Assembly: GCA_023205875.1 (NCBI GenBank) | Contig: CP060761.1 | Location: 796,322-860,321, forward strand | Origin: Chloropicon primus | Lineage: Eukaryota > Chlorophyta > Chloropicophyceae > Chloropicales > Chloropicaceae | Direction of reading: 5' to 3' | Length of the DNA: 64,000 nucleotides | In this document: positions 43,741-62,669 of the stretch, one piece after another | Position numbering within the stretch: the stretch's first letter is position 1 | How the letters are laid out: every line of letters begins with the position of its first letter | Position numbers and translations under genes: made by a program | The notes under the pieces: generated by a model | The model's input: only the letters and a program-made list of their open reading frames with translations | What the model was told of the DNA's origin: nothing | The model's database searches: none

Positions 43741-43772
43741 TCGTCTCTTGCTCTTTCCAAAGAGCCCTCACT
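43741..43772 (-). promoter_or_regulatory. Palindromic upstream element, proximal copy (CAP-G2)
   Basis: On the minus strand: AAGTGAGGGCTCTTTGGAAA followed by GAGCAAGAGACGA. It is sense with CAP-G2, about 185-215 bp upstream of its ATG, the same spacing as the proximal PRP6 copy. Confidence 0.5.
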
Positions 43773-43911
43773 TGGGACGAATGGTGACAGAGATCATGGT
43801 GAGGAGACAGAGGGAAGAGGGGGGGAGGAGGGGGGGAAGGAGGGGGGGAGGGAGGGGGATGGTGGAGGGAGGGGGAGAGGGGGGAGAAGGGATCATGGAT
43901 GGATGGATGCG

Positions 43912-43943
43912 TCGTCTCTTGCTCTTTCCAAAGAGCCCTCACT
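43912..43943 (-). promoter_or_regulatory. Palindromic upstream element, distal copy (CAP-G2)
   Basis: Identical to the proximal copy, 171 bp further upstream. Confidence 0.5.
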
Positions 43944-44087
43944 TGGGACGAATGGTGACAGAGATCACGGTGAGGAGACAGAGGGAAGAGGGGGAGGAGG
44001 AGCATGATGGGATGATGGTGGAGGAGGAGGGGAACGACGCGAGGGTTGGAGGGACGGGAGCAGCAACAAGGTTAGGGTTCTTCAGGG

Positions 44088-44359: not shown

Positions 44360-46759
44360 ATGTCACGAGACAGACATCGCAGGAAGCAACCCTGCAAGTT
44401 CATGACTTCTGAGGACGTCAACGTGCTTCTAAGTGTCGAGCAGGGCGAGAATGGAGAGAAGAAGGGTGGCGAAGCAAGCGCGGCCGAGGCCTCCTGGAGG
44501 TTCGTCTACCGTCCCGAAATCGATGGGTTGAGGTTCTGGGCCGTCATGCCGGTCCTCTTCTACCACTACGGCGCGGTGTTCGGCTTCACGGGGGGCTACG
44601 CCGGGGTTGACGTGTTTTTTGTCATCTCCGGGTACCTCATCACCTCCATCGTGCTGAGGGAGCTGTGCATGGGGAAGTCCGTCCTGCGCCACTTCTGGGA
44701 GCGCCGGGTGCGGAGACTCTTTCCCGCCATCGCTACCATGTTCGTGTGCCTGTACATTCACGGCTGGTTCATGCTGTCCCCCAACGTGTACAACAACTTT
44801 GTTGGGGAGTCGATCTTCGGTCTCATCGCGGGCTCAAACTTTTATTACTACGTGACGACCAAGGACCTGGGAGGTTACGTGGCCGCGGGGCCCGAGGCCT
44901 ACCCTTTGCTCCATTTCTGGTCCCTGGCAGTGGAGGAGCAGTTCTACATGGTCTTGCCGGTCGTGCTGACATGCGTGTGGAGGTTCTGCAAGACTGACCG
45001 CAAGCGTTGGATGTGGACTCTGGGGCTTTTGGGGTTTGTGCTCCTCGCCTCCTTTGCCTTCTCCGTAGGCTACACACCGATCAACAACCCCTTTTGCTTC
45101 TACTTGCTCTTTGCGCGGGCCTGGGAGCTGGCCATCGGCAGCTTTGTGGGCATCGCGACGTCGGACGTGGGAATGACTACCATGAGCAGAGTTCTGGGTC
45201 TCCACCTGGGCAAACGTGTCTCCCCTCTTGCCAAGCGCTTGATGCTGGAGGCGACGGGCTGGCTTGGCTTTGGGTTGATCCTCTTTGTGTACTTTTACTT
45301 CACCAGGGAAATGGAGTACACATATCCTTACTACTACGCCTTGGGGCCTTGCGTTGGTGCGTTAATGGTGATTGTTGGGAACACCCCAGTCTTCAAGCCC
45401 TCCAAGGACCTCAGCGGTGACAGTGGTGACGGGGAACAGAGGATCATGACCACGTGCGGGTTGTTCTTGTCCTTTGCCCCTTTTGTTTGGATTGGGAAGA
45501 TCTCTTACGCCCTCTATCTTTGGCACTGGCCACTCTGGTGCTTTCAGGGGGGAGTCCGCTTGAGTCAAAATAACGTGGTCTCTGCACTGGTGCTGACCAT
45601 GGTAGCCATCGGACTTTCTGCTGTAAGTACTCAGTTGATTGAGCAGCCCTTTCGTTCCGCGAAACGGGTCGGTAGGAAGCCCTTGTGGATTCTCTCTGGC
45701 ATCGTGTGGACTGCTTTGCTCAGTTTCAGCATTGCAGTGCATGTGCTAGAGGTCGGGGGATCCAACAAGACGATTGCGGCGCCCCAAGTGGAGGACGGGA
45801 TGGACAGCAGCAGCACTGTTTTTGTGCCCACTGGAAGTGAACCCCAATCCTTCTTTTTGGAAGATGCGAATCCCGAGCTCTTCTCCGTGGAAGGAATAGA
45901 GAAAAGCTCTACCTTGAGTAGGAAGTACAGGGAGGAGCTGACGATGCTTATGGGTGACGACCCCCCTGATGAAAAATGCGAAGTTATCAGCGACAAGAGC
46001 CCTGCCTTTGATGAGTGCCCTGGTGCAGAGGACATGATCGTGTACAACGAGGCGGGGGACCCTCCTTGTCTGGCATTTTTGGGAAACTCTCACCTGGGAC
46101 ATCATATACTCACCATTGCTTCTTTGGCCAAGGAATATGACGTCTCTTACCTATGGCTTAAGAGATCCGGGCGAGGGGACCGTTTTGGTGGTTGTGAATC
46201 GACACCTGATCCGCCAACGCCTTGGGATGAGCAGAGAATCAGAATCCTGAAGCAATGGAAGCCCAAAAGGGTGATTTTCGCAACCCATCGTCCCTATTGT
46301 TTACTGGCAAACAATAGCACCTTGGATGGCTTGATGAGTGGCGCCCCCGAGAAGGTCTTGATCATGGGAGACAATCCACACCTTGATTATGGATCTTTTC
46401 CTTTCAAAATCAGACAAAAGTTGCAGAAAGAGCTTTTGAATGCCATCAAGAATGGGGATGTATCAAGCCTTGACTTTCTCTCTACCATAAAGCCCAAGAA
46501 GTTTGATGATTTTCTTCGTACTGAGGACGGACTGAGGAAAGCAATAGAAAGCAACCCAAAGTACAATGGCACAATCCAGTTTGAAAGCACATACCCTGCA
46601 TTCATGGACCAGAACAACGCCTTTGTGCAGGTTGTTGGTGCGGAAACGGAAGGTGGCAACCGCATGACATACGCCGACTTATCACACTTGAGCGCTGACG
46701 GATCGGAACGTTTAAGGGAGTACTTCAGAGAGCACATCTTCGGGGACCTCGATTGCTGA
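44360..46759 (+). CDS. OafA-like acyltransferase-3 with SGNH domain, copy 1 (3' type I)
   Basis: 799 aa. The acyltransferase-3 membrane domain starts YRPEIDGLRFWAVMPVLFYH (catalytic-type His69), GGYAGVDVFFVISGYLITS, a basic RRVRRLFPA loop, FWSLAVEEQFY, and IEQPFR at the end of about ten helices (to about residue 475). The C-terminal SGNH domain has FLGNSH (Ser577) and ADLSHLSADG (Asp773, His776). Bacterial relatives O-acetylate surface polysaccharides, moving acetyl across the membrane to the SGNH domain. Secretory-pathway glycan acetylation is inferred here. Start is MSRDRHRRKQ in a GAGTGACATG context; the open frame upstream lacks an ATG and encodes minisatellite. Confidence 0.9.
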   Translation: MSRDRHRRKQPCKFMTSEDVNVLLSVEQGENGEKKGGEASAAEASWRFVYRPEIDGLRFWAVMPVLFYHYGAVFGFTGGYAGVDVFFVISGYLITSIVLRELCMGKSVLRHFWERRVRRLFPAIATMFVCLYIHGWFMLSPNVYNNFVGESIFGLIAGSNFYYYVTTKDLGGYVAAGPEAYPLLHFWSLAVEEQFYMVLPVVLTCVWRFCKTDRKRWMWTLGLLGFVLLASFAFSVGYTPINNPFCFYLLFARAWELAIGSFVGIATSDVGMTTMSRVLGLHLGKRVSPLAKRLMLEATGWLGFGLILFVYFYFTREMEYTYPYYYALGPCVGALMVIVGNTPVFKPSKDLSGDSGDGEQRIMTTCGLFLSFAPFVWIGKISYALYLWHWPLWCFQGGVRLSQNNVVSALVLTMVAIGLSAVSTQLIEQPFRSAKRVGRKPLWILSGIVWTALLSFSIAVHVLEVGGSNKTIAAPQVEDGMDSSSTVFVPTGSEPQSFFLEDANPELFSVEGIEKSSTLSRKYREELTMLMGDDPPDEKCEVISDKSPAFDECPGAEDMIVYNEAGDPPCLAFLGNSHLGHHILTIASLAKEYDVSYLWLKRSGRGDRFGGCESTPDPPTPWDEQRIRILKQWKPKRVIFATHRPYCLLANNSTLDGLMSGAPEKVLIMGDNPHLDYGSFPFKIRQKLQKELLNAIKNGDVSSLDFLSTIKPKKFDDFLRTEDGLRKAIESNPKYNGTIQFESTYPAFMDQNNAFVQVVGAETEGGNRMTYADLSHLSADGSERLREYFREHIFGDLDC

Positions 46760-47147
46760 GAGAAAGGCTATTGGAATGGGACACGAATGACTCTCATCGT
46801 TGCACGCGGATTAAAATCAGTTATTGTAAACCAAGGACCTTTGAAGCTCCTTCCCCTCGATCTTTCTTCTCCTGGTATGATCGGCCCCGACTGCCCCTCG
46901 AAATGTTTTCAGAGTCCGCTTCGCTTCGTCTTTGTGGGGCGGCCCGTGGGGCGGCCGGTGGGGCGGCCGGTGTAGCGGCCGGTGGGGCGGCCGGTGTAGC
47001 GGCCGGTGGGGGGGGGGCGGCCTAATTCTGGAGCGGTTACAGTTTGGAAGGAGCGCGGGGCGACGAGGGCGAGAGACAACGCCGCTGCAAGTCGACAAGG
47101 AGAAGGAGAACCGAGCGAGCGGGACCGAGACGAGGGGAAGGAGTGAC
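46760..47147 (+). promoter_or_regulatory. Promoter cassette of acyltransferase 2 (longest minisatellite)
   Basis: 388 bp, the whole spacer between copies 1 and 2, so it must hold both the 3' end signals and the next promoter. The G-rich minisatellite (about 46935-47020) has about six 12-bp units of GTGGGGCGGCCG or GTGTAGCGGCCG, then a run of nine or ten G and the conserved CTAATTCTGGAGCGG. Confidence 0.7.
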
Positions 47148-49556
47148 ATGTCACGGGACAGACATCGCAGGAAGCAACCCTGCAAGTTCATGACTTCTGA
47201 GGACGTCAACGTGCTTCTAAGTGTCGAGCAGGGCGAGAATGGAGAGAAGAATGGTGGCGAAGCAAGCGCGGCCGAGGCCTCCTGGAGGTTCGTCTACCGT
47301 CCCGAAATCGATGGGTTGAGGTTCTGGGCCGTCATGCCGGTCCTCTTCTACCACTACGGCGCGGTGTTCGGCTTCACGGGGGGCTACGCCGGGGTTGACG
47401 TGTTTTTTGTCATCTCCGGGTACCTCATCACCTCCATCGTGCTGAGGGAGCTGTGCATGGGGAAGTCCGTCCTGCGCCACTTCTGGGAGCGCCGGGTGCG
47501 GAGACTCTTTCCCGCCATCGCTACCATGTTCGTGTGCCTGTACATCTACGGCTGGTTCATGCTGTCCCCCAACGTGTACAACAACTTTGTTGGGGAGTCG
47601 ATCTTCGGTCTCATCGCGGGCTCAAACTTTTATTACTACGTGACGACCAAGGACCTGGGAGGTTACGTGGCCGCGGGGCCCGAGGCCTACCCTTTGCTCC
47701 ATTTCTGGTCCCTGGCAGTGGAGGAGCAGTTCTACATGGTCTTGCCGGTCGTGCTGACATGCGTGTGGAGGTTCTGCAAGACTGACCGCAAGCGTTGGAT
47801 GTGGACTCTGGGGCTTTTGGGGTTTGTGCTCCTCGCCTCCTTTGCCTTCTCCGTAGGCTACACACCGATCAACAACCCCTTTTGCTTCTACTTGCTCTTT
47901 GCGCGGGCCTGGGAGCTGGCCATCGGCAGCTTTGTGGGCATCGCGACGTCGGACGTGGGAATGACTACCATGAGCAGAGTTCTGGGTCTCCACCTGGGCA
48001 AACGTGTCTCCCCTCTTGCCAAGCGCTTGATGCTGGAGGCGACGGGCTGGCTTGGCTTTGGGTTGATCCTCTTTGTGTACTTTTACTTCACCAGGGAAAT
48101 GGAGTACACATATCCTTACTACTACGCCTTGGGGCCTTGCGTTGGTGCGTTAATGGTGATTGTTGGGAACACCCCAGTCTTCAAGCCCTCCAAGGACCTC
48201 AGCGGTGACAGTGGTGACGGGGAACAGAGGATCATGACCACGTGCGGGTTGTTCTTGTCCTTTGCCCCTTTTGTTTGGATTGGGAAGATCTCTTACGCCC
48301 TCTATCTTTGGCACTGGCCACTCTGGTGCTTTCAGGGGGGAGTCCGCTTGAGTCAAAATAACGTGGTCTCTGCACTGGTGCTGACCATGGTAGCCATCGG
48401 ACTTTCTGCTGTAAGTACTCAGTTGATTGAGCAGCCCTTTCGTTCCGCGAAACGGGTCGGTAGGAAGCCCTTGTGGATTCTCTCTGGCATCGTGTGGACT
48501 GCTTTGCTCAGTTTCAGCATTGCAGTGCATGTGCTAGAGGTCGGGGGATCCAACAAGACGATTGCGGCGCCCCAAGTGGAGGACGGGATGGACAGCAGCA
48601 GCACTGTTTTTGTGCCCACTGGAAGTGAACCCCAATCCTTCTTTTTGGAAGATGCGAATCCCGAGCTCTTCTCCGTAGAAGGAATAGAGAAAAGCTCTAC
48701 CTTGAGTAGGAAGTACAGGGAGGAGGTGACGATGCTTATGGGTGACGACCCCCCTGATGGAAAATGCAAAGTTATCAGCGACAAGAGCCCTGCCTTTGAT
48801 GAGTGCCCTGGTGCAGAGGACATGATCGTGTACAACGAGGCGGGGGACCCTCCTTGTCTGGCATTTTTGGGAAACTCTCACATGTGGCATCATATACTCA
48901 CCATTGCTTCTTTGGCCAAGGAATATGACGTCTCTTACCTATGGCTTACGAGAACCGGGCGAGGGGACCGTTTTGGTGGTTGTGAATCGACACCTGATCC
49001 GCCAACGCCTTGGGATGAGCAGAGAATCAGAATCCTGAAGCAATGGAAGCCCAAAAGGGTGATTTTCGCAACCCATCGTCCCTATTGTTTACTGGCAAAC
49101 AATAGCACCTTGGATGGCTTGATGAGTGGCGCCCCCGAGAAGGTCTTGATCATGGGAGACAATCCACACCTTGATTCTGGATCTTTTCCTTTCGAAATCA
49201 GACGCGGTTTTGGTGTGTTGCAGAAAGAGCTTTTGAATGCCATCAAGGTTGGGGATGTATCAAGCCTTGACTTTCTATCCACCATAAAGCCCGAGCGCTT
49301 TGATTTTTTTCTTCGTACTGAGGACCGACTGAGGAAAGCAATAGAAAGCAACCCAAAGTACAATGGCACAATCCAGTTTGAAAGCACATACCCTGCATTC
49401 ATGGACCAGAACAACACCTTTGTGCAGGTTGTTGGTGCGGAAACGGAAGGTGGCAACCGTATGTTATACGTTGACGGAGGACACGTGAACCGTGACGGAT
49501 CGGAACGTTTAAGGGAGTACTTCAGAGAGCACATCTTCGGGGACCTCGATTGCTGA
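47148..49556 (+). CDS. OafA-like acyltransferase-3 with SGNH domain, copy 2 (3' type II)
   Basis: 802 aa. The membrane half is essentially that of copy 1. The SGNH half switches to an alternative type from about 48.88 kb: GNSHMWHH, LTRTGRGDRF, FEIRRGFGVLQ, KPERFDFFLRTEDRL and DGGHVNRDG in place of DLSHLSADG. The Ser/Asp/His set is retained, so it should be active with altered surface residues. It shares this 3' type only with copy 6. Confidence 0.9.
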   Translation: MSRDRHRRKQPCKFMTSEDVNVLLSVEQGENGEKNGGEASAAEASWRFVYRPEIDGLRFWAVMPVLFYHYGAVFGFTGGYAGVDVFFVISGYLITSIVLRELCMGKSVLRHFWERRVRRLFPAIATMFVCLYIYGWFMLSPNVYNNFVGESIFGLIAGSNFYYYVTTKDLGGYVAAGPEAYPLLHFWSLAVEEQFYMVLPVVLTCVWRFCKTDRKRWMWTLGLLGFVLLASFAFSVGYTPINNPFCFYLLFARAWELAIGSFVGIATSDVGMTTMSRVLGLHLGKRVSPLAKRLMLEATGWLGFGLILFVYFYFTREMEYTYPYYYALGPCVGALMVIVGNTPVFKPSKDLSGDSGDGEQRIMTTCGLFLSFAPFVWIGKISYALYLWHWPLWCFQGGVRLSQNNVVSALVLTMVAIGLSAVSTQLIEQPFRSAKRVGRKPLWILSGIVWTALLSFSIAVHVLEVGGSNKTIAAPQVEDGMDSSSTVFVPTGSEPQSFFLEDANPELFSVEGIEKSSTLSRKYREEVTMLMGDDPPDGKCKVISDKSPAFDECPGAEDMIVYNEAGDPPCLAFLGNSHMWHHILTIASLAKEYDVSYLWLTRTGRGDRFGGCESTPDPPTPWDEQRIRILKQWKPKRVIFATHRPYCLLANNSTLDGLMSGAPEKVLIMGDNPHLDSGSFPFEIRRGFGVLQKELLNAIKVGDVSSLDFLSTIKPERFDFFLRTEDRLRKAIESNPKYNGTIQFESTYPAFMDQNNTFVQVVGAETEGGNRMLYVDGGHVNRDGSERLREYFREHIFGDLDC

Positions 49557-49920
49557 GAGAAAGGCTATTGGAATGGGACACGAATGACTTCCATCGTTGC
49601 GCATGGATTAAAACCAGTTATTGTAAACGAAGGACCTTTGAAGCTCCTTCCCCTCGATCTTTCTTCTCCTGGTACGATCGGCCCCGACTGCCCCTCGAAA
49701 TGTTTTCAGAGTCCGCTTCGCTTCGTCTTTGTGGGGCGGGCTGTGGGGCGCCCCGTGGGGCGGCCGGTGGGGCGGCCGGTGGGGGGGGGGCGGCCTAATT
49801 CTGGAGCGGTTACAGTTTGGAAGGAGCGCGGGGCGACGAGGGCGAGAGACAACGCCGCTGCAAGTCGACAAGGAGAAGGAGAACCGAGCGAGCGGGACCG
49901 AGACGAGGGGAAGGAGTGAC
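49557..49920 (+). promoter_or_regulatory. Promoter cassette of acyltransferase 3 (type II spacer)
   Basis: Follows a type II gene and carries the type II spacer marks: GACTTCCATCG, AAACGAAGGACC, GGTACGATCGG and GGGCGGGCTGTGGGGCGCCCC at the minisatellite start. The same spacer follows copy 6. Confidence 0.7.
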
Positions 49921-52320
49921 ATGTCACGAGACAGACATCGCAGGAAGCAACCCTGCAAGTTCATGACTTCTGAGGACGTCAACGTGCTTCTAAGTGTCGA
50001 GCAGGGCGAGAATGGAGAGAAGAAGGGTGGCGAAGCAAGCGCGGCCGAGGCCTCCTGGAGGTTCGTCTACCGTCCCGAAATCGATGGGTTGAGGTTCTGG
50101 GCCGTCATGCCGGTCCTCTTCTACCACTACGGCGCGGTGTTCGGCTTCACGGGAGGCTACGCCGGGGTTGACGTGTTCTTTGTCATCTCCGGGTACCTCA
50201 TCACCTCCATCGTGCTGAGGGAGCTGTGCATGGGGAAGTCCGTCCTGCGCCACTTCTGGGAGCGCCGGGTGCGGAGACTCTTTCCCGCCATCGCTACCAT
50301 GTTCGTGTGCCTGTACATCTACGGCTGGTTCATGCTGTCCCCCAACGTGTACAACAACTTTGTTGGGGAGTCGATCTTCGGTCTCATCGCGGGCTCAAAC
50401 TTTTATTACTACGTGACGACCAAGGACCTGGGAGGTTACATGGCCGCGGGGCCCGAGGCCTACCCTTTGCTCCATTTCTGGTCCCTGGCAGTGGAGGAGC
50501 AGTTCTACATGGTCTTGCCGGTCGTGCTGACATGCGTGTGGAGGTTCTGCAAGACTGACCGCAAGCGTTGGATGTGGACTCTGGGGTTTTTGGGGTTTGT
50601 GCTCCTCGCCTCCTTTGCCTTCTCCGTAGGCTACACACCGATCAACAACCCCTTTTGCTTCTACTTGCTCTTTGCGCGGGCCTGGGAGCTGGCCATCGGC
50701 AGCTTTGTGGGCATCGCGACGTCGGACGTGGGAATGGCTACCATGAGCAGAGTTCTGGGTCTCCACCTGGGCAAACGTGTCTCCCCTCTTGCCAAGCGCT
50801 TGATGCTGGAGGCGACGGGCTGGCTTGGCTTTGGGTTGATCCTCTTTGTGTACTTTTACTTCACCAGGGAAATGGAGTACACATATCCTTACTACTACGC
50901 CTTGGGGCCTTGCGTTGGTGCGTTAATGGTGATTGTTGGGAACACCCCAGTCTTCAAGCCCTCCAAGGACCTCAGCGGTGACAGTGGTGACGGGGAACAG
51001 AGGATCATGACCACGTGCGGGTTGTTCTTGTCCTTTGCCCCTTTTGTTTGGATTGGGAAGATCTCTTACGCCCTCTATCTTTGGCACTGGCCACTCTGGT
51101 GCTTTCAGGGGGGAGTCCGCTTGAGTCAAAATAACGTGGTCTCTGCACTGGTGCTGACCATGGTAGCCATCGGACTTTCTGCTGTAAGTACTCAGTTGAT
51201 TGAGCAGCCCTTTCGTTCCGCGAAACGGGTCGGTAGGAAGCCCTTGTGGATTCTCTCTGGCATCGTGTGGACTGCTTTGCTCAGTTTCAGCATTGCAGTG
51301 CATGTGCTAGAGGTCGGGGGATCCAACAAGACGATTGCGGTGCCCCAAGTGGAGGACGGGATGGACAGCAGCAGCACTGTTTTTGTGCCCACTGGAAGTG
51401 AACCCCAATCCTTCTTTTTGGAAGATGCGAATCCCGAGCTCTTCTCCGTGGAAGGAATAGAGAAAAGCTCTACCTTGAGTAGGAGGTACAGGGAGGAGCT
51501 GAAGATGCTTATGGGTGACGAACCCCCTGATGGAGAATGCAAATCTATCAACGACAAGAGCCCTGCCTTTGATGAGTGCCCTGGTGCAGAGGACATGATC
51601 GTGTACAACGAGGCGGGGGACCCTCCTTGTCTGGCATTTTTGGGAAACTCTCACCTGGGACATCATATACTCACCATTGCTTCTTTGGCCAAGGAATATG
51701 ACGTCTCTTACCTATGGCTTAAGAGACCCGGGCGAGGGGACCGTTTTGGTGGTTGTGAATCGACACCTGATCCGCCAACGCCTTGGGATGAGCAGAGAAT
51801 CAGAATCCTGAAGCAATGGAAGCCCAAAAGGGTGATTTTCGCAACCCATCGTCCCTATTGTTTACTGGCAAACAATAGCACCTTGGATGGCTTGATGAGT
51901 GGCGCCCCCGAGAAGGTCTTGATCATGGGAGACAATCCACTTCTTGATTATGGATCTTTTCCTTTCAAAATCAGACAAAAGTTGCAGAAAGAGCTTTTGA
52001 ATGCCATCAAGGTTGGGGATGTATCAAGCCTTGACTTTCTCTCTACCATAAAGCCCAAGAAATTTGATGATTTTCTTCGTACTGAGGACGGACTGAGGAA
52101 AGCAATAGAAAGCAACCCAAAGTACAATGGCACAATCCAGTTTGAAAGCACATACCCTGCATTCATGGACCAGAACAACGCCTTTGTGCAGGTTGTTGGT
52201 GCGGAAACGGAAGGTGGCAACCGCATGACATACGCCGACTTATCACACTTGAGCGCTGACGGATCGGAACGTTTAAGGGAGTACTTCAGAGAGCACATCT
52301 TCGGGGACCTCGATTGCTGA
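49921..52320 (+). CDS. OafA-like acyltransferase-3 with SGNH domain, copy 3 (3' type I)
   Basis: 799 aa, the same domains as copy 1. It differs at scattered sites, mainly in the SGNH half: RRYREELKMLMGDEPPDGECKSINDK, LKRPGRGDRF, LLDYGSFPFKIRQ, and DLSHLSADG retained. The only frequent membrane-half changes (VAAGPE to MAAGPE, GMTTMS to GMATMS) are shared with copies 4-6. Confidence 0.9.
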   Translation: MSRDRHRRKQPCKFMTSEDVNVLLSVEQGENGEKKGGEASAAEASWRFVYRPEIDGLRFWAVMPVLFYHYGAVFGFTGGYAGVDVFFVISGYLITSIVLRELCMGKSVLRHFWERRVRRLFPAIATMFVCLYIYGWFMLSPNVYNNFVGESIFGLIAGSNFYYYVTTKDLGGYMAAGPEAYPLLHFWSLAVEEQFYMVLPVVLTCVWRFCKTDRKRWMWTLGFLGFVLLASFAFSVGYTPINNPFCFYLLFARAWELAIGSFVGIATSDVGMATMSRVLGLHLGKRVSPLAKRLMLEATGWLGFGLILFVYFYFTREMEYTYPYYYALGPCVGALMVIVGNTPVFKPSKDLSGDSGDGEQRIMTTCGLFLSFAPFVWIGKISYALYLWHWPLWCFQGGVRLSQNNVVSALVLTMVAIGLSAVSTQLIEQPFRSAKRVGRKPLWILSGIVWTALLSFSIAVHVLEVGGSNKTIAVPQVEDGMDSSSTVFVPTGSEPQSFFLEDANPELFSVEGIEKSSTLSRRYREELKMLMGDEPPDGECKSINDKSPAFDECPGAEDMIVYNEAGDPPCLAFLGNSHLGHHILTIASLAKEYDVSYLWLKRPGRGDRFGGCESTPDPPTPWDEQRIRILKQWKPKRVIFATHRPYCLLANNSTLDGLMSGAPEKVLIMGDNPLLDYGSFPFKIRQKLQKELLNAIKVGDVSSLDFLSTIKPKKFDDFLRTEDGLRKAIESNPKYNGTIQFESTYPAFMDQNNAFVQVVGAETEGGNRMTYADLSHLSADGSERLREYFREHIFGDLDC

Positions 52321-52684
52321 GAGAAAGGCTATTGGAATGGGACACGAATGACTCTCATCGTTGCGCATGGATTAAAATCAGTTATTGTAAACCAAGGACC
52401 TTTGAAGCTCCTTCCCCTCGATCTTTCTTCTCCTGGTATGATCGGCCCCGACTGCCCCTCGAAATGTTTTCAGAGTCCGCTTCGCTTCGTCTTTGTGGGG
52501 CGGCCCGTGGGGCGGCCGGTGGGGCGGCCGGTGGGGCGGCCGGTGGGGGGGGGGCGGCCTAATTCTGGAGCGGTTACAGTTTGGAAGGAGCGCGGGGCGA
52601 CGAGGGCGAGAGACAACGCCGCTGCAAGTCGACAAGGAGAAGGAGAACCGAGCGAGCGGGACCGAGACGAGGGGAAGGAGTGAC
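52321..52684 (+). promoter_or_regulatory. Promoter cassette of acyltransferase 4
   Basis: Type I spacer (GACTCTCATCG, AAACCAAGGACC, GGTATGATCGG) with four GTGGGGCGGCCG-type units and a G run. Essentially identical to the cassette of copy 5. Confidence 0.7.
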
Positions 52685-55084
52685 ATGTCACGGGGCAGAC
52701 ATCGCAGGAAGCAACCCTGCAAGTTCATGACTTCTGAGGACGTCAACGTGCTTCTAAGTGTCGAGCAGGGCGAGAATGGAGAGAAGAAGGGTGGCGAAGC
52801 AAGCGCGGCCGAGGCCTCCTGGAGGTTCGTCTACCGTCCCGAAATCGATGGGTTGAGGTTCTGGGCCGTCATGCCGGTCCTCTTCTACCACTACGGCGCG
52901 GTGTTCGGCTTCACGGGAGGCTACGCCGGGGTTGACGTGTTCTTTGTCATCTCCGGGTACCTCATCACCTCCATCGTGCTGAGGGAGCTGTGCATGGGGA
53001 AGTCCGTCCTGCGCCACTTCTGGGAGCGCCGGGTGCGGAGACTCTTTCCCGCCATCGCTACCATGTTCGTGTGCCTGTACATTCACGGCTGGTTCATGCT
53101 GTCCCCCAACGTGTACAACAACTTTGTTGGGGAGTCGATCTTCGGTCTCATCGCGGGCTCAAACTTTTATTACTACGTGACGACCAAGGACCTGGGAGGT
53201 TACATGGCCGCGGGGCCCGAGGCCTACCCTTTGCTCCATTTCTGGTCCCTGGCAGTGGAGGAGCAGTTCTACATGGTCTTGCCGGTCGTGCTGACATGCG
53301 TGTGGAGGTTCTGCAAGACTGACCGCAAGCGTTGGATGTGGACTCTGGGGCTTTTGGGGTTTGTGCTCCTCGCCTCCTTTGCCTTCTCCGTAGGCTACAC
53401 ACCGATCAACAACCCCTTTTGCTTCTACTTGCTCTTTGCGCGGGCCTGGGAGCTGGCCATCGGCAGCTTTGTGGGCATCGCGACGTCGGACGTGGGAATG
53501 GCTACCATGAGCAGAGTTCTGGGTCTCCACCTGGGCAAACGTGTCTCCCCTCTTGCCAAGCGCTTGATGCTGGAGGCGACGGGCTGGCTTGGCTTTGGGT
53601 TGATCCTCTTTGTGTACTTTTACTTCACCAGGGAAATGGAGTACACATATCCTTACTACTACGCCTTGGGGCCTTGCGTTGGTGCGTTAATGGTGATTGT
53701 TGGGAACACCCCAGTCTTCAAGCCCTCCAAGGACCTCAGCGGTGACAGTGGTGACGGGGAACAGAGGATCATGACCACGTGCGGGTTGTTCTTGTCCTTT
53801 GCCCCTTTTGTTTGGATTGGGAAGATCTCTTACGCCCTCTATCTTTGGCACTGGCCACTCTGGTGCTTTCAGGGGGGAGTCCGCTTGAGTCAAAATAACG
53901 TGGTCTCTGCACTGGTGCTGACCATGGTAGCCATCGGACTTTCTGATGTAAGTACTCAGTTGATTGAGCAGCCCTTTCGTTCCGCGAAACGGGTCGGTAG
54001 GAAGCCCTTGTGGATTCTCTCTGGCATCGTGTGGACTGCTTTGCTCAGTTTCAGCATTGCAGTGCATGTGCTAGAGGTCGGGGGATCCAACAAGACGATT
54101 GCGGTGCCCCAAGTGGAGGACGGGATGGACAGCAGCAGCACTGTTTTTGTGCCCACTGGAAGTGAACCCCAATCCTTCTTTTTGGAAGATGCGAATCCCG
54201 AGCTCTTCTCCGTGGAAGGAATAGAGAAAAGCTCTACCTTGAGTAGGAGGTACAGGGAGGAGCTGAAGATGCTTATGGGTGACGAACTCCCTGATGGAGA
54301 ATGCAAAGTTATCAGCGACAAGAGCCCTGCCTTTGATGAGTGCCCTGGTGCAGAGGACATGATCGTGTACAACGAGGCGGGGGACCCTCCTTGTCTGGCA
54401 TTTTTGGGAAACTCTCACCTGGGACATCATATACTCACCATTGCTTCTTTGGCCAAGGAATATGACGTCTCTTACCTATGGCTTAAGAGACCCGGGCGAG
54501 GGGACCTTTTTGGTGGTTGTGGTTCGACACCTGATCCGCCATCGCCTTGGGATGAGCAGAGAATCAGGATCCTGAAGCAATGGAAGCCCAAAAGGGTGAT
54601 TTTCGCAACCCATCGTCCCTATTGTTTACTGGCAAACAATAGCACCTTGGATGGCTTGATGAGTGGCGCCCCCGAGAAGGTCTTGATCATGGGAGACAAT
54701 CCACTTCTTGATTATGGATCTTTTCCTTTCAAAATCAGACAAAAGTTGCAGAAAGAGCTTTTGAATGCCATCAAGGTTGGGGATGTATCAAGCCTTGACT
54801 TTCTCTCTACCATAAAGCCCAAGAAATTTGATGATTTTCTTCGTACTGAGGACGGACTGAGGAAAGCAATAGAAAGCAACCCAAAGTACAATGGCACAAT
54901 CCAGTTTGAAAGCACATACCCTGCATTCATGGACCAGAACAACGCCTTTGTGCAGGTTGTTGGTGCGGAAACGGAAGGTGGCAACCGCATGACATACGCC
55001 GACTTATCACACTTGAGCGCTGACGGATCGGAACGTTTAAGGGAGTACTTCAGAGAGCACATCTTCGGGGACCTCGATTGCTGA
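52685..55084 (+). CDS. OafA-like acyltransferase-3 with SGNH domain, copy 4 (3' type I)
   Basis: 799 aa. All catalytic motifs are intact. Variable-region marks are GDELPDGECKVISDK, LKRPGRGDLFGGCGSTPDPPSPW and GLSDVSTQLIEQPF (Asp for Ala). Together with copy 5 it forms the most recent duplication in the array; I noticed His/Tyr in CLYIHGWF and the G-run indel as differences. Confidence 0.9.
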   Translation: MSRGRHRRKQPCKFMTSEDVNVLLSVEQGENGEKKGGEASAAEASWRFVYRPEIDGLRFWAVMPVLFYHYGAVFGFTGGYAGVDVFFVISGYLITSIVLRELCMGKSVLRHFWERRVRRLFPAIATMFVCLYIHGWFMLSPNVYNNFVGESIFGLIAGSNFYYYVTTKDLGGYMAAGPEAYPLLHFWSLAVEEQFYMVLPVVLTCVWRFCKTDRKRWMWTLGLLGFVLLASFAFSVGYTPINNPFCFYLLFARAWELAIGSFVGIATSDVGMATMSRVLGLHLGKRVSPLAKRLMLEATGWLGFGLILFVYFYFTREMEYTYPYYYALGPCVGALMVIVGNTPVFKPSKDLSGDSGDGEQRIMTTCGLFLSFAPFVWIGKISYALYLWHWPLWCFQGGVRLSQNNVVSALVLTMVAIGLSDVSTQLIEQPFRSAKRVGRKPLWILSGIVWTALLSFSIAVHVLEVGGSNKTIAVPQVEDGMDSSSTVFVPTGSEPQSFFLEDANPELFSVEGIEKSSTLSRRYREELKMLMGDELPDGECKVISDKSPAFDECPGAEDMIVYNEAGDPPCLAFLGNSHLGHHILTIASLAKEYDVSYLWLKRPGRGDLFGGCGSTPDPPSPWDEQRIRILKQWKPKRVIFATHRPYCLLANNSTLDGLMSGAPEKVLIMGDNPLLDYGSFPFKIRQKLQKELLNAIKVGDVSSLDFLSTIKPKKFDDFLRTEDGLRKAIESNPKYNGTIQFESTYPAFMDQNNAFVQVVGAETEGGNRMTYADLSHLSADGSERLREYFREHIFGDLDC

Positions 55085-55448
55085 GAGAAAGGCTATTGGA
55101 ATGGGACACGAATGACTCTCATCGTTGCGCATGGATTAAAATCAGTTATTGTAAACCAAGGACCTTTGAAGCTCCTTCCCCTCGATCTTTCTTCTCCTGG
55201 TATGATCGGCCCCGACTGCCCCTCGAAATGTTTTCAGAGTCCGCTTCGCTTCGTCTTTGTGGGGCGGCCCGTGGGGCGGCCGGTGGGGCGGCCGGTGGGG
55301 CGGCCGGTGGGGGGGGGGCGGCCTAATTCTGGAGCGGTTACAGTTTGGAAGGAGCGCGGGGCGACGAGGGCGAGAGACAACGCCGCTGCAAGTCGACAAG
55401 GAGAAGGAGAACCGAGCGAGCGGGACCGAGACGAGGGGAAGGAGTGAC
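55085..55448 (+). promoter_or_regulatory. Promoter cassette of acyltransferase 5
   Basis: Same as the copy 4 cassette: type I spacer, four minisatellite units and a G run. Confidence 0.7.
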
Positions 55449-57847
55449 ATGTCACGGGGCAGACATCGCAGGAAGCAACCCTGCAAGTTCATGACTTCTG
55501 AGGACGTCAACGTGCTTCTAAGTGTCGAGCAGGGCGAGAATGGAGAGAAGAAGGGTGGCGAAGCAAGCGCGGCCGAGGCCTCCTGGAGGTTCGTCTACCG
55601 TCCCGAAATCGATGGGTTGAGGTTCTGGGCCGTCATGCCGGTCCTCTTCTACCACTACGGCGCGGTGTTCGGCTTCACGGGAGGCTACGCCGGGGTTGAC
55701 GTGTTCTTTGTCATCTCCGGGTACCTCATCACCTCCATCGTGCTGAGGGAGCTGTGCATGGGGAAGTCCGTCCTGCGCCACTTCTGGGAGCGCCGGGTGC
55801 GGAGACTCTTTCCCGCCATCGCTACCATGTTCGTGTGCCTGTACATCTACGGCTGGTTCATGCTGTCCCCCAACGTGTACAACAACTTTGTTGGGGAGTC
55901 GATCTTCGGTCTCATCGCGGGCTCAAACTTTTATTACTACGTGACGACCAAGGACCTGGGAGGTTACATGGCCGCGGGGCCCGAGGCCTACCCTTTGCTC
56001 CATTTCTGGTCCCTGGCAGTGGAGGAGCAGTTCTACATGGTCTTGCCGGTCGTGCTGACATGCGTGTGGAGGTTCTGCAAGACTGACCGCAAGCGTTGGA
56101 TGTGGACTCTGGGGCTTTTGGGGTTTGTGCTCCTCGCCTCCTTTGCCTTCTCCGTAGGCTACACACCGATCAACAACCCCTTTTGCTTCTACTTGCTCTT
56201 TGCGCGGGCCTGGGAGCTGGCCATCGGCAGCTTTGTGGGCATCGCGACGTCGGACGTGGGAATGGCTACCATGAGCAGAGTTCTGGGTCTCCACCTGGGC
56301 AAACGTGTCTCCCCTCTTGCCAAGCGCTTGATGCTGGAGGCGACGGGCTGGCTTGGCTTTGGGTTGATCCTCTTTGTGTACTTTTACTTCACCAGGGAAA
56401 TGGAGTACACATATCCTTACTACTACGCCTTGGGGCCTTGCGTTGGTGCGTTAATGGTGATTGTTGGGAACACCCCAGTCTTCAAGCCCTCCAAGGACCT
56501 CAGCGGTGACAGTGGTGACGGGGAACAGAGGATCATGACCACGTGCGGGTTGTTCTTGTCCTTTGCCCCTTTTGTTTGGATTGGGAAGATCTCTTACGCC
56601 CTCTATCTTTGGCACTGGCCACTCTGGTGCTTTCAGGGGGAGTCCGCTTGAGTCAAAATAACGTGGTCTCTGCACTGGTGCTGACCATGGTAGCCATCGG
56701 ACTTTCTGATGTAAGTACTCAGTTGATTGAGCAGCCCTTTCGTTCCGCGAAACGGGTCGGTAGGAAGCCCTTGTGGATTCTCTCTGGCATCGTGTGGACT
56801 GCTTTGCTCAGTTTCAGCATTGCAGTGCATGTGCTAGAGGTCGGGGGATCCAACAAGACGATTGCGGTGCCCCAAGTGGAGGACGGGATGGACAGCAGCA
56901 GCACTGTTTTTGTGCCCACTGGAAGTGAACCCCAATCCTTCTTTTTGGAAGATGCGAATCCCGAGCTCTTCTCCGTGGAAGGAATAGAGAAAAGCTCTAC
57001 CTTGAGTAGGAGGTACAGGGAGGAGCTGAAGATGCTTATGGGTGACGAACTCCCTGATGGAGAATGCAAAGTTATCAGCGACAAGAGCCCTGCCTTTGAT
57101 GAGTGCCCTGGTGCAGAGGACATGATCGTGTACAACGAGGCGGGGGACCCTCCTTGTCTGGCATTTTTGGGAAACTCTCACCTGGGACATCATATACTCA
57201 CCATTGCTTCTTTGGCCAAGGAATATGACGTCTCTTACCTATGGCTTAAGAGACCCGGGCGAGGGGACCTTTTTGGTGGTTGTGGTTCGACACCTGATCC
57301 GCCATCGCCTTGGGATGAGCAGAGAATCAGGATCCTGAAGCAATGGAAGCCCAAAAGGGTGATTTTCGCAACCCATCGTCCCTATTGTTTACTGGCAAAC
57401 AATAGCACCTTGGATGGCTTGATGAGTGGCGCCCCCGAGAAGGTCTTGATCATGGGAGACAATCCACTTCTTGATTATGGATCTTTTCCTTTCAAAATCA
57501 GACAAAAGTTGCAGAAAGAGCTTTTGAATGCCATCAAGGTTGGGGATGTATCAAGCCTTGACTTTCTCTCTACCATAAAGCCCAAGAAATTTGATGATTT
57601 TCTTCGTACTGAGGACGGACTGAGGAAAGCAATAGAAAGCAACCCAAAGTACAATGGCACAATCCAGTTTGAAAGCACATACCCTGCATTCATGGACCAG
57701 AACAACGCCTTTGTGCAGGTTGTTGGTGCGGAAACGGAAGGTGGCAACCGCATGACATACGCCGACTTATCACACTTGAGCGCTGACGGATCGGAACGTT
57801 TAAGGGAGTACTTCAGAGAGCACATCTTCGGGGACCTCGATTGCTGA
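55449..57847 (+). pseudogene. OafA-like acyltransferase-3, copy 5, frameshifted in a G run
   Basis: Near-identical to copy 4, but the CAGGGGGGAGT of the other copies is CAGGGGGAGT at 56635-56642 (five G, 56636-56640, instead of six). The frame shifts after WHWPLWCFQG and stops at 56649-56651, giving a 400-aa protein without the last membrane helices and the SGNH domain. The remainder to 57847 is intact in the other frame. Either a very young pseudogene, a slippage-prone switch, or a homopolymer sequencing error. Confidence 0.85.
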
Positions 57848-58425
57848 GAGAAAGGCTATTGGAATGGGACACGATGACTCTCATCGTTGCGCATGGATTA
57901 AAATCAGTTATTGTAAACCAAGGACCTTTGAAGCTCCTTCCCCTCGATCTTTCTTCTCCTGGTACGATCGCAAGCAAGCTTTGGACCGAGAGGAAGACCC
58001 TTCCTGGAAGGGCACGGCAGGAGGGAGCAAGGGCGGCGAAGTCAGTGATCGTGCTCTGTAGTGCTTAAAGGAGGTGGATCCCAATGCAACGAAGCCACTC
58101 ACCTTGGCCAGCCCCCCGTATTGCCCCTCGACATGTTTTCCGAGTCCGCTTCGCTTGGTCTTTGTGGGGCGGCCGGTGTCCCCCCCTGGGGTCCCGCCCC
58201 TGGTTCACTCCTCCCCAGGGTAGGCTCTGGTCTCCACCCGCCTCAACCTAAAATCTTAATTCTGGAGCGGTTACAGTTTGGAAGGAGCGCGGGGCGACGA
58301 GGGCGAGAGACAACGCCGCTGCAAGTCGACAAGGACAAGGACAAGGAGAACCGAGCGAGCGGGACCGAGACGAGGGGAAGGACTGCAGGCGGGACAGACA
58401 TCGCACAAAGCAACCCTGCAAGTTC
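57848..58425 (+). promoter_or_regulatory. Rearranged promoter cassette of acyltransferase 6
   Basis: The array spacer is interrupted at about 57967 by about 150 bp of unrelated sequence (AAGCAAGCTTTGGACCGAGA onward). The promoter then resumes with one minisatellite unit, a CCCCTGGGG...CCCCAGGG stem-like segment and, from about 58258, the conserved AATTCTGGAGCGGTTACAG. The G run is missing. One base is also lost just after the copy 5 stop (CACGATGAC for CACGAATGAC). Confidence 0.65.
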
Positions 58426-60810
58426 ATGGCTTCTGCGGAAGTCAACATGCTTCTAAGCGACGAGCAGGGCGAGAATGGAGAGAAGAAGGGTGGCGAAGCA
58501 AGCGCGGCCGAGGCCTCCTGGAGGTTCGTCTACCGTCCCGAAATCGATGGGTTGAGGTTCTGGGCCGTCATGCCGGTCCTCTTCTACCACTACGGCGCGG
58601 TGTTCGGCTTCACGGGAGGCTACGCCGGGGTTGACGTGTTCTTTGTCATCTCCGGGTACCTCATCACCTCCATCGTGCTGAGGGAGCTGTGCATGGGGAA
58701 GTCCGTCCTGCGCCACTTCTGGGAGCGCCGGGTGCGGAGACTCTTTCCCGCCATCGCTACCATGTTCGTGTGCCTGTACATCTACGGCTGGTTCATGCTG
58801 TCCCCCAACGTGTACAACAACTTTGTTGGGGAGTCGATCTTCGGTCTCATCGCGGGCTCAAACTTTTATTACTACGTGACGACCAAGGACCTGGGAGGTT
58901 ACATGGCCGCGGGGCCCGAGGCCTACCCTTTGCTCCATTTCTGGTCCCTGGCAGTGGAGGAGCAGTTCTACATGGTCTTGCCGGTCGTGCTGACATGCGT
59001 GTGGAGGTTCTGCAAGACTGACCGCAAGCGTTGGATGTGGACTCTGGGGCTTTTGGGGTTTGTGCTCCTCGCCTCCTTTGCCTTCTCCGTAGGCTACACA
59101 CCGATCAACAACCCCTTTTGCTTCTACTTGCTCTTTGCGCGGGCCTGGGAGCTGGCCATCGGCAGCTTTGTGGGCATCGCGACGTCGGACGTGGGAATGG
59201 CTACCATGAGCAGAGTTCTGGGTCCCCACCTGGGCAAACGTGTCTCCCCTCTTGCCAAGCGCTTGATGCTGGAGGCGACGGGCTGGCTTGGCTTTGGGTT
59301 GATCCTCTTTGTGTACTTTTACTTCACCAGGGAAATGGAGTACACATATCCTTACTACTACGCCTTGGGGCCTTGCGTTGGTGCGTTAATGGTGATTGTT
59401 GGGAACACCCCAGTCTTCAAGCCCTCCAAGGACCTCAGCGGTGACAGTGGTGACGGGGAACAGAGGATCATGACCACGTGCGGGTTGTTCTTGTCCTTTG
59501 CCCCTTTTGTTTGGATTGGGAAGATCTCTTACGCCCTCTATCTTTGGCACTGGCCACTCTGGTGCTTTCAGGGGGGAGTCCGCTTGAGTCAAAATAACGT
59601 GGTCTCTGCACTGGTGCTGACCATGGTAGCCATCGGACTTTCTGCTGTAAGTACTCAGTTGATTGAGCAGCCCTTTCGTTCCGCGAAACGGGTCGGTAGG
59701 AAGCCCTTGTGGATTCTCTCTGGCATCGTGTGGACTGCTTTGCTCAGTTTCAGCATTGCAGTGCATGTGCTAGAGGTCGGGGGATCCAACAAGACGATTG
59801 CGGCGCCCCAAGTGGAGGACGGGATGGACAGCAGCAGCACTGTTTTTGTGCCCACTGGAAGTGAACCCCAATCCTTCTTTTTGGAAGATGCGAATCCCGA
59901 GCTCTTCTCCGTGGAAGGAATAGAGAAAAGCTCTACCTTGAGTAGGAAGTACAGGGAGGAGCTGACGATGCTTATGAGTGACTTCTCTTGGATTACAAAT
60001 GGAAAGGGGGGACTTTGTCACCCAGGTCCCAACTCCCCAAAGAGCCTTGGTGAATGTGCTGAAGCTGAGGAGGAAAGCATCGTGTACAACGAGGCGGGGG
60101 ACCCTCCTTGTCTGGCATTTTTGGGAAACTCTCACATGGGGCATCATATACGCACTATCGCTTCCTTGGCGAAAGAATATGACGTCTCTTTCCTATGGCT
60201 TGCGAGACACTCTTGGGGGGACCTTTTTGGTGGTTGTGGTTCGACACCTGATCCGCCATCGCCTTGGGATGAGCAGAGAATCAGAATCCTGAAGCAATGG
60301 AAGCCCAAAAGGGTGATTTTCGCAACCCATCGTCCCCGATGCTTACTGGAAAACAATAGCACCCTGGATGGCTTGATGAGTGGCGCCCCCGAGAAGGTCT
60401 TGATCATGGGAGACAATCCACACCTTGATTCTGGATCTTTTCCTTTCGAAAGCAGGCACGGTTTTAATGCGTTGCAGAAAGAGCTTTTGAATGCCATCAA
60501 GGTTGGGGATGTATCAAGCCTTGACTTTCTATCCACCATAAAGCCCGAGCGCTTTGATTTTTTTCTTCGTACTGAGGACCGACTGAGGAAAGCAATAGAA
60601 AGCAACCCAAAGTACAATGGCACAATCCAGTTTGAAAGCACATACCCTGCATTCATGGACCAGAACAACACCTTTGTGCAGGTTGTTGGTGCGGAAACGG
60701 AAGGTGGCAACCGTATGTTATACGTTGACGGAGGACACGTGAACCGTGACGGATCGGAACGTTTAAGGGAGTACTTCAGAGAGCACATCTTCGGGGACCT
60801 CGATTGCTGA
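58426..60810 (+). CDS. OafA-like acyltransferase-3 with SGNH domain, copy 6 (3' type II, most diverged)
   Basis: 794 aa from ATG 58426 (MASAEVNMLLSDEQ). The MSRDRHRRKQ start of the other copies is destroyed (ACTGCAGGCGGGAC replaces the ATGTCACGGGAC context), so the start moves 14 codons in. The membrane half matches the others. The SGNH half carries a unique segment (SDFSWITNGKGGLCHPGPNS, then ECAEAEEESI) plus type II marks: GNSHMGHH, ARHSWGDLF, RPRCLLENN, FESRHGFNALQ and DGGHVNRDG. The catalytic Ser, Asp and His are kept. Confidence 0.88.
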   Translation: MASAEVNMLLSDEQGENGEKKGGEASAAEASWRFVYRPEIDGLRFWAVMPVLFYHYGAVFGFTGGYAGVDVFFVISGYLITSIVLRELCMGKSVLRHFWERRVRRLFPAIATMFVCLYIYGWFMLSPNVYNNFVGESIFGLIAGSNFYYYVTTKDLGGYMAAGPEAYPLLHFWSLAVEEQFYMVLPVVLTCVWRFCKTDRKRWMWTLGLLGFVLLASFAFSVGYTPINNPFCFYLLFARAWELAIGSFVGIATSDVGMATMSRVLGPHLGKRVSPLAKRLMLEATGWLGFGLILFVYFYFTREMEYTYPYYYALGPCVGALMVIVGNTPVFKPSKDLSGDSGDGEQRIMTTCGLFLSFAPFVWIGKISYALYLWHWPLWCFQGGVRLSQNNVVSALVLTMVAIGLSAVSTQLIEQPFRSAKRVGRKPLWILSGIVWTALLSFSIAVHVLEVGGSNKTIAAPQVEDGMDSSSTVFVPTGSEPQSFFLEDANPELFSVEGIEKSSTLSRKYREELTMLMSDFSWITNGKGGLCHPGPNSPKSLGECAEAEEESIVYNEAGDPPCLAFLGNSHMGHHIRTIASLAKEYDVSFLWLARHSWGDLFGGCGSTPDPPSPWDEQRIRILKQWKPKRVIFATHRPRCLLENNSTLDGLMSGAPEKVLIMGDNPHLDSGSFPFESRHGFNALQKELLNAIKVGDVSSLDFLSTIKPERFDFFLRTEDRLRKAIESNPKYNGTIQFESTYPAFMDQNNTFVQVVGAETEGGNRMLYVDGGHVNRDGSERLREYFREHIFGDLDC

Positions 60811-61196
60811 GAGAAAGGCTATTGGAATGGGACACGAATGACTTCCATCGTTGCGCATGGATTAAAACCAGTTATTGTAAACGAAGGACCTTTGAAGCTC
60901 CTTCCCCTCGATCTTTCTTCTCCTGGTACGATCGGCCCCGACTGCCCCTCGAAATGTTTTCAGAGTCCGCTTCGCTTCGTCTTTGTGGGGCGGGCTGTGG
61001 GGCGCCCCGTGGGGCGGCCGGTGGGGCGGCCGGTGGGGGGGGGGCGGCCTAATTCTGGAGCGGTTACAGTTTGGAAGGAGCCTTGGCCCGCGACGGGGGG
61101 CGAGGGAGACACGACTCGGAAACGAACTCCCCGCTTCTCTGGGCGAGAGCTTTGAGGGATTGGGGTCGTTGCGTCGCGCGGGACCGAACGAGACGG
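60811..61196 (+). promoter_or_regulatory. Seventh array promoter cassette, now in front of a GT47 gene
   Basis: Matches the type II spacer and promoter of copy 3 through the minisatellite, G run and GCGGTTACAGTTTGGAAGGAGC (to about 61081), then changes to unrelated sequence leading to the GT47 ATG. The array promoter therefore appears to have been placed upstream of a different gene. Confidence 0.75.
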
Positions 61197-62669
61197 ATGA
61201 GGTACGCGGCTGCGTTGAAGAGAACTTGGCCGTGTTCCCTGGCGCGCGTCGCCCTGGCCACGGTCATCGTTGTCCTGTTTTTCTATTTGTTCTCCGTGCC
61301 ATTCTGGCATGGTAATGGGGAACTGAGCCGGTTGTCGTCCAGTCACGTGGCCTGGGCCTTAGAATCGGTGCACGGAAAGGTCAGGGCATATCGCGGAGCA
61401 CGCAACGGCACAGGCAAAAGAGAGGCACCCATGAACAACGCCAAGCAGGGCGAGAATCCCGTGCGATTCTACCTGTACCCGTTTGACGCGTTTCCTACAT
61501 CCTGGGGGAACCACTCTGGCAACGGATGTGACCACAAGAGGGTGGGCGACGTCAAGCACGACCACGCTGATTGGGTGTGGAACGCCCTCTATTTCCATCC
61601 TTGGCGGACGCATGAGCCGAAGCTGGCCGAGCTGGCTGTGCTGCCAATATCGTTTGACTTGATGGCTAATGGTCGCTGCGTTCGGAGGTTCGGGCCAGAA
61701 ACGACGGCGCTGATAGTTGCCGAGATCTCTGCGGCATTGAATCGCAGTGGCATCTTTCCGAAGGTTCGCCATCTTGTTATTGCCAATGACTTTAAGTCGA
61801 AACCATTCATGAAAGCAATAGATCCTGTCCTTGCACCCGCAGGTGTGTGGGCCGGGATGGAAGGTCGCGGCGAGTGCCGAACCAGTCTTGGTTATTCGAC
61901 AGTCAACTCTGTGTACCTGTCTATGCGAGACCCCAACCACTTTAAGGGACTTCCCGGGATGTCCATATTCTCGAGGCCACCCGCGCAACGCAGGTACTCC
62001 ATAACCTTCGTGGGGCAGCTGGACTCCCGCAAGGCATACCAGGACCGTGTGGCACTGTTTCAGTCTAACGGCAGCATCCCTGCAGCACATATGACGACGG
62101 TGATTATGAATCCCTTGGAAAGGAAGAAGGACCTCCATTTGAGGTATTGCACCTCCACTGAGGATGTGGACCGGTGCGTTCTTCGCAAAAAAACGTCGCG
62201 TGTTGAGACGCAGCGCTTGATGGAACAGTCCAACTACACGCTATGTTTGCGTGGCGATACGCTCGGTTCAGACCGATGGGTCAACGGGATGGCCGCGGGG
62301 ACCGCACTGATCGCGGTGGTCGACGAAGACAAGGACCTCGACTGGCTTCCTTTTCCTGATGCCGTGCCATGGCGTTCGCTAGTCATCACTATCCAGAGAA
62401 GCACTTTCAGGCGCGACCCCGCAGCCGCACTGCGGCAAGTCATGAAAGACACGTCAACAGAGAGGCTTGCTGAATTACAACAGTTATCTAGGCACTATCT
62501 TGCTGATTTGGACTGGAGCTCCTACAAATCGAGGGCGGTCGACAACTTGCTCCGGGAGGCCATCTCTGTGCCTTGTCACCCAGCGGATTTGAGGGGGGGC
62601 GCATTCGCTCCCGCTCCCCCGGCACCAGAGTCAACCGGGGACGAGATCAACAGCAGCACAAGTGGTTGA
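61197..62669 (+). CDS. Exostosin-like glycosyltransferase (GT47 family)
   Basis: 490 aa, type II membrane protein: short basic N-terminus (MRYAAALKRTW) and one anchor helix (VALATVIVVLFFYLFSVPFW). The exostosin-like catalytic half shows RRYSITFVGQLDSRKAYQDR, then RLMEQSNYTLCLRGDTLGSD RW..GMAAGTALIAVVDE and LPFPDAVPWRSLVITI, the usual order of the nucleotide-sugar binding part. It is probably a Golgi enzyme adding sugar to cell-surface or secreted glycans; donor and acceptor cannot be told. The in-frame upstream extension has only a TTG start and runs into the array cassette, so ATG 61197 was chosen. The shared promoter suggests co-regulation with the acyltransferases. Confidence 0.82.
   Translation: MRYAAALKRTWPCSLARVALATVIVVLFFYLFSVPFWHGNGELSRLSSSHVAWALESVHGKVRAYRGARNGTGKREAPMNNAKQGENPVRFYLYPFDAFPTSWGNHSGNGCDHKRVGDVKHDHADWVWNALYFHPWRTHEPKLAELAVLPISFDLMANGRCVRRFGPETTALIVAEISAALNRSGIFPKVRHLVIANDFKSKPFMKAIDPVLAPAGVWAGMEGRGECRTSLGYSTVNSVYLSMRDPNHFKGLPGMSIFSRPPAQRRYSITFVGQLDSRKAYQDRVALFQSNGSIPAAHMTTVIMNPLERKKDLHLRYCTSTEDVDRCVLRKKTSRVETQRLMEQSNYTLCLRGDTLGSDRWVNGMAAGTALIAVVDEDKDLDWLPFPDAVPWRSLVITIQRSTFRRDPAAALRQVMKDTSTERLAELQQLSRHYLADLDWSSYKSRAVDNLLREAISVPCHPADLRGGAFAPAPPAPESTGDEINSSTSG

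Follow-up and report, generated by a model that had tools for sequence, protein, structure and literature searches.

In the marine picoplanktonic green alga Chloropicon primus RCC138 (PMC12301720), chromosome 8 carries at its right end six tandem genes for membrane acyltransferases that join an AT3 domain to an SGNH domain. The membrane half of these proteins is nearly constant, while the SGNH half is variable and built from mosaic blocks, and a similar split is seen in two other lineages of related proteins. The window analysed here is a stretch of 64,000 nucleotides (C8:796322-860321) whose last base, 860321, is also the end of the contig, and positions below are those of the window unless a contig is named. 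The explanation we favour, to which we give about an even chance when taken whole, is that gene conversion keeps one AT3 donor module uniform while old SGNH acceptor variants are shuffled between the copies.

Domain and motif searches support the assignment of the array genes to the OafA-type AT3-SGNH acyltransferase family. The AT3 domain (PF01757) scores over its cut-off in all six copies (76.3-79.6 bits against 31) and the SGNH domain (PF19040) lies in the same open reading frame (ORF) in five (33.5-39.2 bits against 27), copy 5 having it in a separate ORF. The AT3 motifs R/K-x10-H, FFxISG, GG-F/Y-xGV-D and RxxR start at residues 44, 72, 64 and 101 of copy 4, respectively. Hydropathy gave 10 windows over the cut-off, two pairs among them overlapping, where the family expectation is 11 transmembrane helices. 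Sequons in the linker and SGNH half of 12 algal sequences number 51 against 24.6 expected, yet there are also 81 against 55.5 in 52 non-algal sequences. Within the SGNH triad, S563 is invariant and D759 and H762 are kept in at least 90% of 69 aligned sequences. None of the three varies among the five intact copies, and copy 5 is the same as copy 4 at these positions. Residues 496-781 of the copy 4 model align with residues 380-640 of Salmonella OafB in 6se1, the best solved match. In the part of the OafB literature available, the SGNH extension is described as restricting acceptor specificity; the structural alignment begins at model residue 496 and spans the position of this extension, where the hypervariable segment of the array proteins would lie, but the predicted local distance difference test score (pLDDT) is 52-68 over residues 501-540.

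Variable residues among the five intact copies number 6 of 419 in the membrane domain, 2 of 57 in the linker, 24 of 45 in the hypervariable segment and 32 of 232 in the SGNH core. For the membrane domain compared with the core, a Fisher test gives p 3e-10. Copy 5 was left out of the residue counts and of the family alignment, gap columns were dropped throughout, and region borders shift slightly between two counts, so that the hypervariable segment of the array appears as 24/45 or 25/51. Near the active site, GNSHLGHH occurs in copies 1, 3, 4 and 5, GNSHMWHH in copy 2 and GNSHMGHH in copy 6; DLSHLSADG is found in copies 1, 3, 4 and 5 and DGGHVNRDG in copies 2 and 6. As the core is much alike in copies 1, 3, 4 and 5, we recognise three SGNH types rather than six: type A (copies 1, 3, 4 and 5), type B (copy 2) and type C (copy 6). 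Between types the core differs by 7-13%, with an AT3 difference of at most 1%.

Recombination between the copies is solidly established as the mechanism. Across all six copies, 50 informative sites fall into 13 runs where 31.3 are expected, none of 10,000 shuffles gave so few, and the minimum number of recombination events (Rmin) is 7, that is, at least seven events are implied. The groupings change along the gene, mainly from copies 1+2, to 1+2+6, to 1+2+3 against 4+5+6, and to 2+6 against the rest. From near coding sequence (CDS) position 2020 (copy 1 numbering), copies 2 and 6 have the same sequence past the stop codon and through 271 bases of spacer. Trees of the two halves conflict in the same way, AT3 joining copies 1 and 2 (support 0.91) and SGNH joining copies 2 and 6 (0.69). 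The mosaic indicates that exchange continued inside the SGNH half. An earlier note on this DNA had described an OafA-type array beside a telomere, with nearly invariant membrane domains, catalytic residues always kept and exchange between copies in the SGNH half, and all of this is borne out. Its six tandem copies are present, but five are intact and copy 5 is frameshifted as assembled; the SGNH motifs it quoted are all there, but they define three types and not six; and the variable loop it placed after CxxxISDK does vary, but the variable segment takes in the CxxxISDK stretch itself.

No AT3-SGNH locus other than the array was found in the genome. Of the 18 places where PF01757 was detected, six are in the array and 12 elsewhere. 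Six of these 12 were run through Pfam and all have AT3 without SGNH; five more form a tandem array on contig C16, where frames of 509-563 residues leave no room for AT3 plus SGNH; the twelfth, on C13, was not run. A protein search of the genome with the SGNH half of copy 6 (E 0.1) gave six matches, all of them array copies, and so no SGNH donor outside the array. The five-copy, AT3-only array on C16 (C16:130000-139999) is chromosome-internal. Some of its members are near-identical and others divergent, the differences running the length of the gene and not being confined to one half.

Nei-Gojobori counts over all 15 pairs, with one codon of copy 5 masked, gave synonymous (dS) and replacement (dN) distances of 0-0.010 and 0.001-0.004 in the AT3 half, up to 0.13 and 0.086 in the SGNH core, and 0.59-0.67 and 0.46-0.48 in the hypervariable segment when copy 6 is compared with the others. 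Synonymous and replacement change are thus both concentrated in SGNH, which indicates that the AT3 halves are younger by descent, i.e. homogenised. Several observations weigh against selected variation of the SGNH half as a part of our explanation. Variable four-fold sites are likewise commoner in the core (6 of 78) than in the membrane domain (1 of 211), and in maximum-likelihood pair models, run for 7 of the 15 pairs, the SGNH omega ranges over 0.60-2.31 and is in no pair significantly different from 1 (2dlnL at most 2.16). SGNH also evolves faster than AT3 family-wide: in the nine closest non-algal pairs (those of 1,326 with an AT3 distance below 0.3) the distance ratio is 1.1-4.0, median 2.06, and four of the nine combine 11-13% AT3 difference with 42-51% SGNH difference. 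The non-telomeric C16 array likewise has high dN/dS, its uncorrected values being about 0.5-1.1 in the six pairs printed out of ten, and the SGNH extension falls in the low-confidence part of the model. Conversion alone yields most of the constant/variable pattern. The earlier note had argued for diversifying selection from an excess of replacement changes in the SGNH half; the excess stands in the counts, but not as a rate ratio. Selection in that form is not upheld, since the synonymous excess and an omega not significantly different from 1 make most of the contrast a product of gene conversion of the membrane half and not proven diversifying selection.

Neutral concerted evolution would accommodate these same observations. 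Here tandem copies would convert readily wherever they match, mismatch between SGNH halves, from indels and old duplicates, would have suppressed conversion, constraint would be weak, and the variants would have no useful difference in specificity. We consider this a real possibility, although we doubt it more than we believe it. Against it, no copy has a stop codon in its SGNH half, length differences there are only net in-frame, the catalytic residues are unchanged, and the mosaic speaks for continued exchange inside that half. Core changes also favour loops on the active-site face (23/91, against 9/141 elsewhere in the core), a test devised after the location of the changes had been seen and applied to converted sites, which are not independent.

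The recurrence of the split in other lineages is a further point against a purely neutral origin. A search of about 5.8 billion proteins gave, among the matches listed, 22 relatives (P0003-P0024) with 50-86% identity, presumably from metagenomes. In lineage B (P0006-P0009) the variable sites number 4/423 in AT3, 12/40 in the hypervariable segment and 45/238 in the core, and in lineage C (P0010-P0015) 5/421, 9/36 and 52/247, the core differences in lineage C being nearly all between P0015 and the others. P0010-P0014 are identical over 421 AT3 residues and differ at 4/247 core and 9/36 hypervariable sites. Both lineages, as they appear in the alignment, thus show the constant/variable split; they are known as separate database proteins in which assembly chimeras are possible. 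Lineage B also appears mosaic: its 23 informative sites make 3 runs where 13.1 are expected, and in a wider set that includes partial proteins there are 22 runs for 31.1 expected; one five-member subset was not significant (p 0.076). The partial proteins P0019, P0020 and P0022 were kept out of the lineage counts and trees but entered one mosaic test, and P0021, P0023 and P0024 were left out of the family alignment. In the C. primus array the core/AT3 distance ratio is 9.5-38 in seven of ten pairs and 1.4-3.6 in the three within type A (copies 1, 3 and 4). Between lineages of the algal clade it is 2.1-4.9 (printed for pairs with an AT3 distance of at most 0.20), so the within-array excess in those seven pairs exceeds the habit of the family, algal or non-algal. 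The four non-algal pairs that keep AT3 while differing in SGNH, drawn from P0060, P0113, P0116, P0055 and P0074, suggest that SGNH halves can be replaced elsewhere too, perhaps outside algae.

In the explanation by conversion and shuffling, the AT3 bundle would receive from CoA, on the cytosolic face, an acyl group that is probably acetyl, and pass it to the SGNH domain. This domain, which we infer to be lumenal, would transfer the group to an acceptor, in all likelihood a glycan bound for the cell surface. The six genes would have arisen by tandem duplication, with recurrent gene conversion or unequal crossing over holding the AT3 donor module near-identical, while the SGNH extension and active-site loops would hold old, divergent and possibly selected variants, block-shuffled between copies. 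The likely outcome would be a small repertoire of acceptor preferences on one donor module. The acceptor might instead be a small secreted molecule, as for the OAC proteins of Caenorhabditis elegans, four of whose genes are required for volatile pheromones according to the available part of PMC12799122. We think this unlikely, although the arguments against it, an O-antigen acetyltransferase as the nearest solved relative and a GT47-like gene adjoining the array, are weak.

The copies could also serve dosage, raising the amount of one enzyme with one substrate, the SGNH differences being incidental. The low core divergence among copies 1, 3 and 4 and the near-identity of copies 4 and 5 would fit such a role, but the three SGNH types differ far more in core than in AT3, and we regard dosage as improbable. 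That the copies or mosaic joins were made by non-unique short-read polishing of a nanopore tandem repeat, or by merged haplotypes, is very improbable: the assembly is indeed of nanopore reads polished with Illumina data from a mostly diploid genome, as the accessible text of PMC12301720 has it, and copy 5 has lost one homopolymer base, but the spacers differ between copies too and lineage B has the split and mosaic in separate, themselves possibly chimeric, sequences. The G-run of copy 5 (56636-56640) lacks one base that the other five copies have, which puts AT3 and SGNH in two ORFs and leaves five intact ORFs as assembled; given the nanopore assembly with Illumina polishing, the frameshift may be a tandem-repeat assembly error. 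The database protein P0002, of 709 residues, is without the stretch around this frameshift.

The C. primus genome comprises 17,584,162 bases in 20 contigs (contig C1, 1,855,637 bases), and its telomere repeat is given as a T-rich TTTAGG type in the part of PMC12301720 available. Along the window, a condensin-II-like gene on the opposite strand is followed by the six copies, the GT47-like ORF, about 1 kb of sequence and the telomere. The array repeats every 2.76-2.94 kb or so, all six copies lie less than 20 kb from the telomere, and 2.9 kb separate the end of copy 6 from the telomeric repeats. Here a telomere-adjoining position is combined with mosaic sequence, and the telomere may be a driver of the exchange.

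Features of the array and its telomeric flank, in window positions (CDS coordinates counted from the conserved ATG of each copy)
Feature	Positions	Strand	Basis
AT3-SGNH copy 1, intact, 785 aa; further in-frame ATG upstream at 44360	44402..46759	+	ORF, Pfam PF01757+PF19040
AT3-SGNH copy 2, intact, 788 aa; membrane half resembles copy 1, SGNH 3' block resembles copy 6	47190..49556	+	ORF, Pfam, block comparison
AT3-SGNH copy 3, intact, 785 aa	49963..52320	+	ORF, Pfam
AT3-SGNH copy 4, intact, 785 aa; used for structure model	52727..55084	+	ORF, Pfam, model
Constant AT3 membrane domain, copy 4 residues 33-451	52823..54079	+	6/419 residues variable, five intact copies
Hypervariable segment at SGNH-extension position (predicted), copy 4 residues 509-553	54251..54385	+	24/45 residues variable; 6se1 alignment
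SGNH core, copy 4 residues 554-785, with Ser563, Asp759, His762	54386..55081	+	32/232 residues variable, catalytic three constant
AT3-SGNH copy 5, frameshifted as assembled; otherwise two CDS substitutions from copy 4	55491..57847	+	Shorter G-run; two ORFs
AT3-SGNH copy 6, intact, 794 aa; SGNH half most divergent; 3' block and 3' flank common with copy 2	58426..60810	+	ORF, Pfam, block comparison
Copy 6 3' flank, 271 bases identical to spacer after copy 2; also upstream of GT47-like gene	60811..61081	+	
GT47/exostosin-like ORF between array and telomere	61053..62669	+	PF03016 29.3 bits, under curated cut-off 33.4
Telomeric repeat, T-rich TTTAGG variants, contig end	63680..64000	+	Repeat type as in PMC12301720 (available part)

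The GT47-like gene (60811-62669 with its flank) has the same upstream sequence as the array copies and may for this reason share their promoter. Three of the seven GT47-like matches outside the window are likewise no more than about 15 kb from a chromosome end (C12:7659, C6:1146783 and C11:716176). About 1.5 kb short of the right end of C16 there is an 82% match to 112 bases of the array spacer, which hints at exchange between chromosome ends. Local tandem repeats at 26804-27100 and 43657-44002, with units of 157 and 171 bp, belong to one dispersed repeat family, and 40 of its 59 genome matches listed are on C18, C19 and C20. The left end of the window (1-2509) lies in a perfect 1440-bp tandem repeat of about 2.1 copies, 100% identical (C8:795764-798830), which is either a duplication or an assembly effect; none of the three ORFs tried in it had a Pfam match.

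Since the pattern recurs in related sequences from the database, the mosaic array may be a means by which the alga varies the chemistry of its surface. The broader proposal, that Chloropicophyceae diversify surface-glycan acylation against viruses, grazers or bacteria by a constant donor and a reshuffled hypervariable acceptor module in at least three lineages, is tentative, and we would sooner doubt it than rely on it. Among the open-access literature matches listed for Chloropicon, virus and resistance, no title concerned viruses of Chloropicon. If true, a marine picoalga diversifies its surface chemistry through recombination in the acceptor half of a single enzyme, and the array would be a definite locus at which the response of Chloropicon to its enemies could be tested. 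The array is also a natural set of SGNH variants on one donor scaffold, useful for the study of acceptor choice in AT3-SGNH enzymes.

VSG and var genes are subtelomeric multigene families of antigenic variation with mosaic conversion. The array resembles them as a multigene family adjoining a telomere with mosaic conversion, but it encodes an enzyme and not a coat antigen, and no SGNH donors were found elsewhere in the genome. C. elegans has 42 OAC proteins with AT3-SGNH architecture, some tandemly duplicated, and a bacterial pathogen leaves mutants of bus-1, a gene that shares the AT3 domain, unaffected (PMC12799122, in part). This too is a eukaryotic, partly tandem AT3-SGNH expansion; however, its products include pheromones, the available part of that report does not describe constant/variable conversion, and we liken the two by description and not by sequence. 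Virus-resistant lines of Ostreococcus tauri show changed expression of genes on one plastic chromosome, many of which are glycan-related, as described in the portion of PMC5082852 consulted. Chromosome 19 (SOC) of that species is, like the array, picoalgal, rich in glycan genes and structurally plastic, but it is a whole chromosome with a virus-resistance expression response, whereas the array is short, of a single family and known from sequence alone. In Salmonella, acetylation by OafB alters phage susceptibility (PMC9833829, in part), and these three parallels make a surface-defence role plausible. The array is like Salmonella OafA and OafB in domain order, AT3 motifs, catalytic triad and best solved match, and unlike them in being in a eukaryotic nucleus, six in tandem, with a constant AT3, a mosaic SGNH and a predicted acceptor; if our explanation is true, it would be a eukaryotic parallel to bacterial O-antigen variation.
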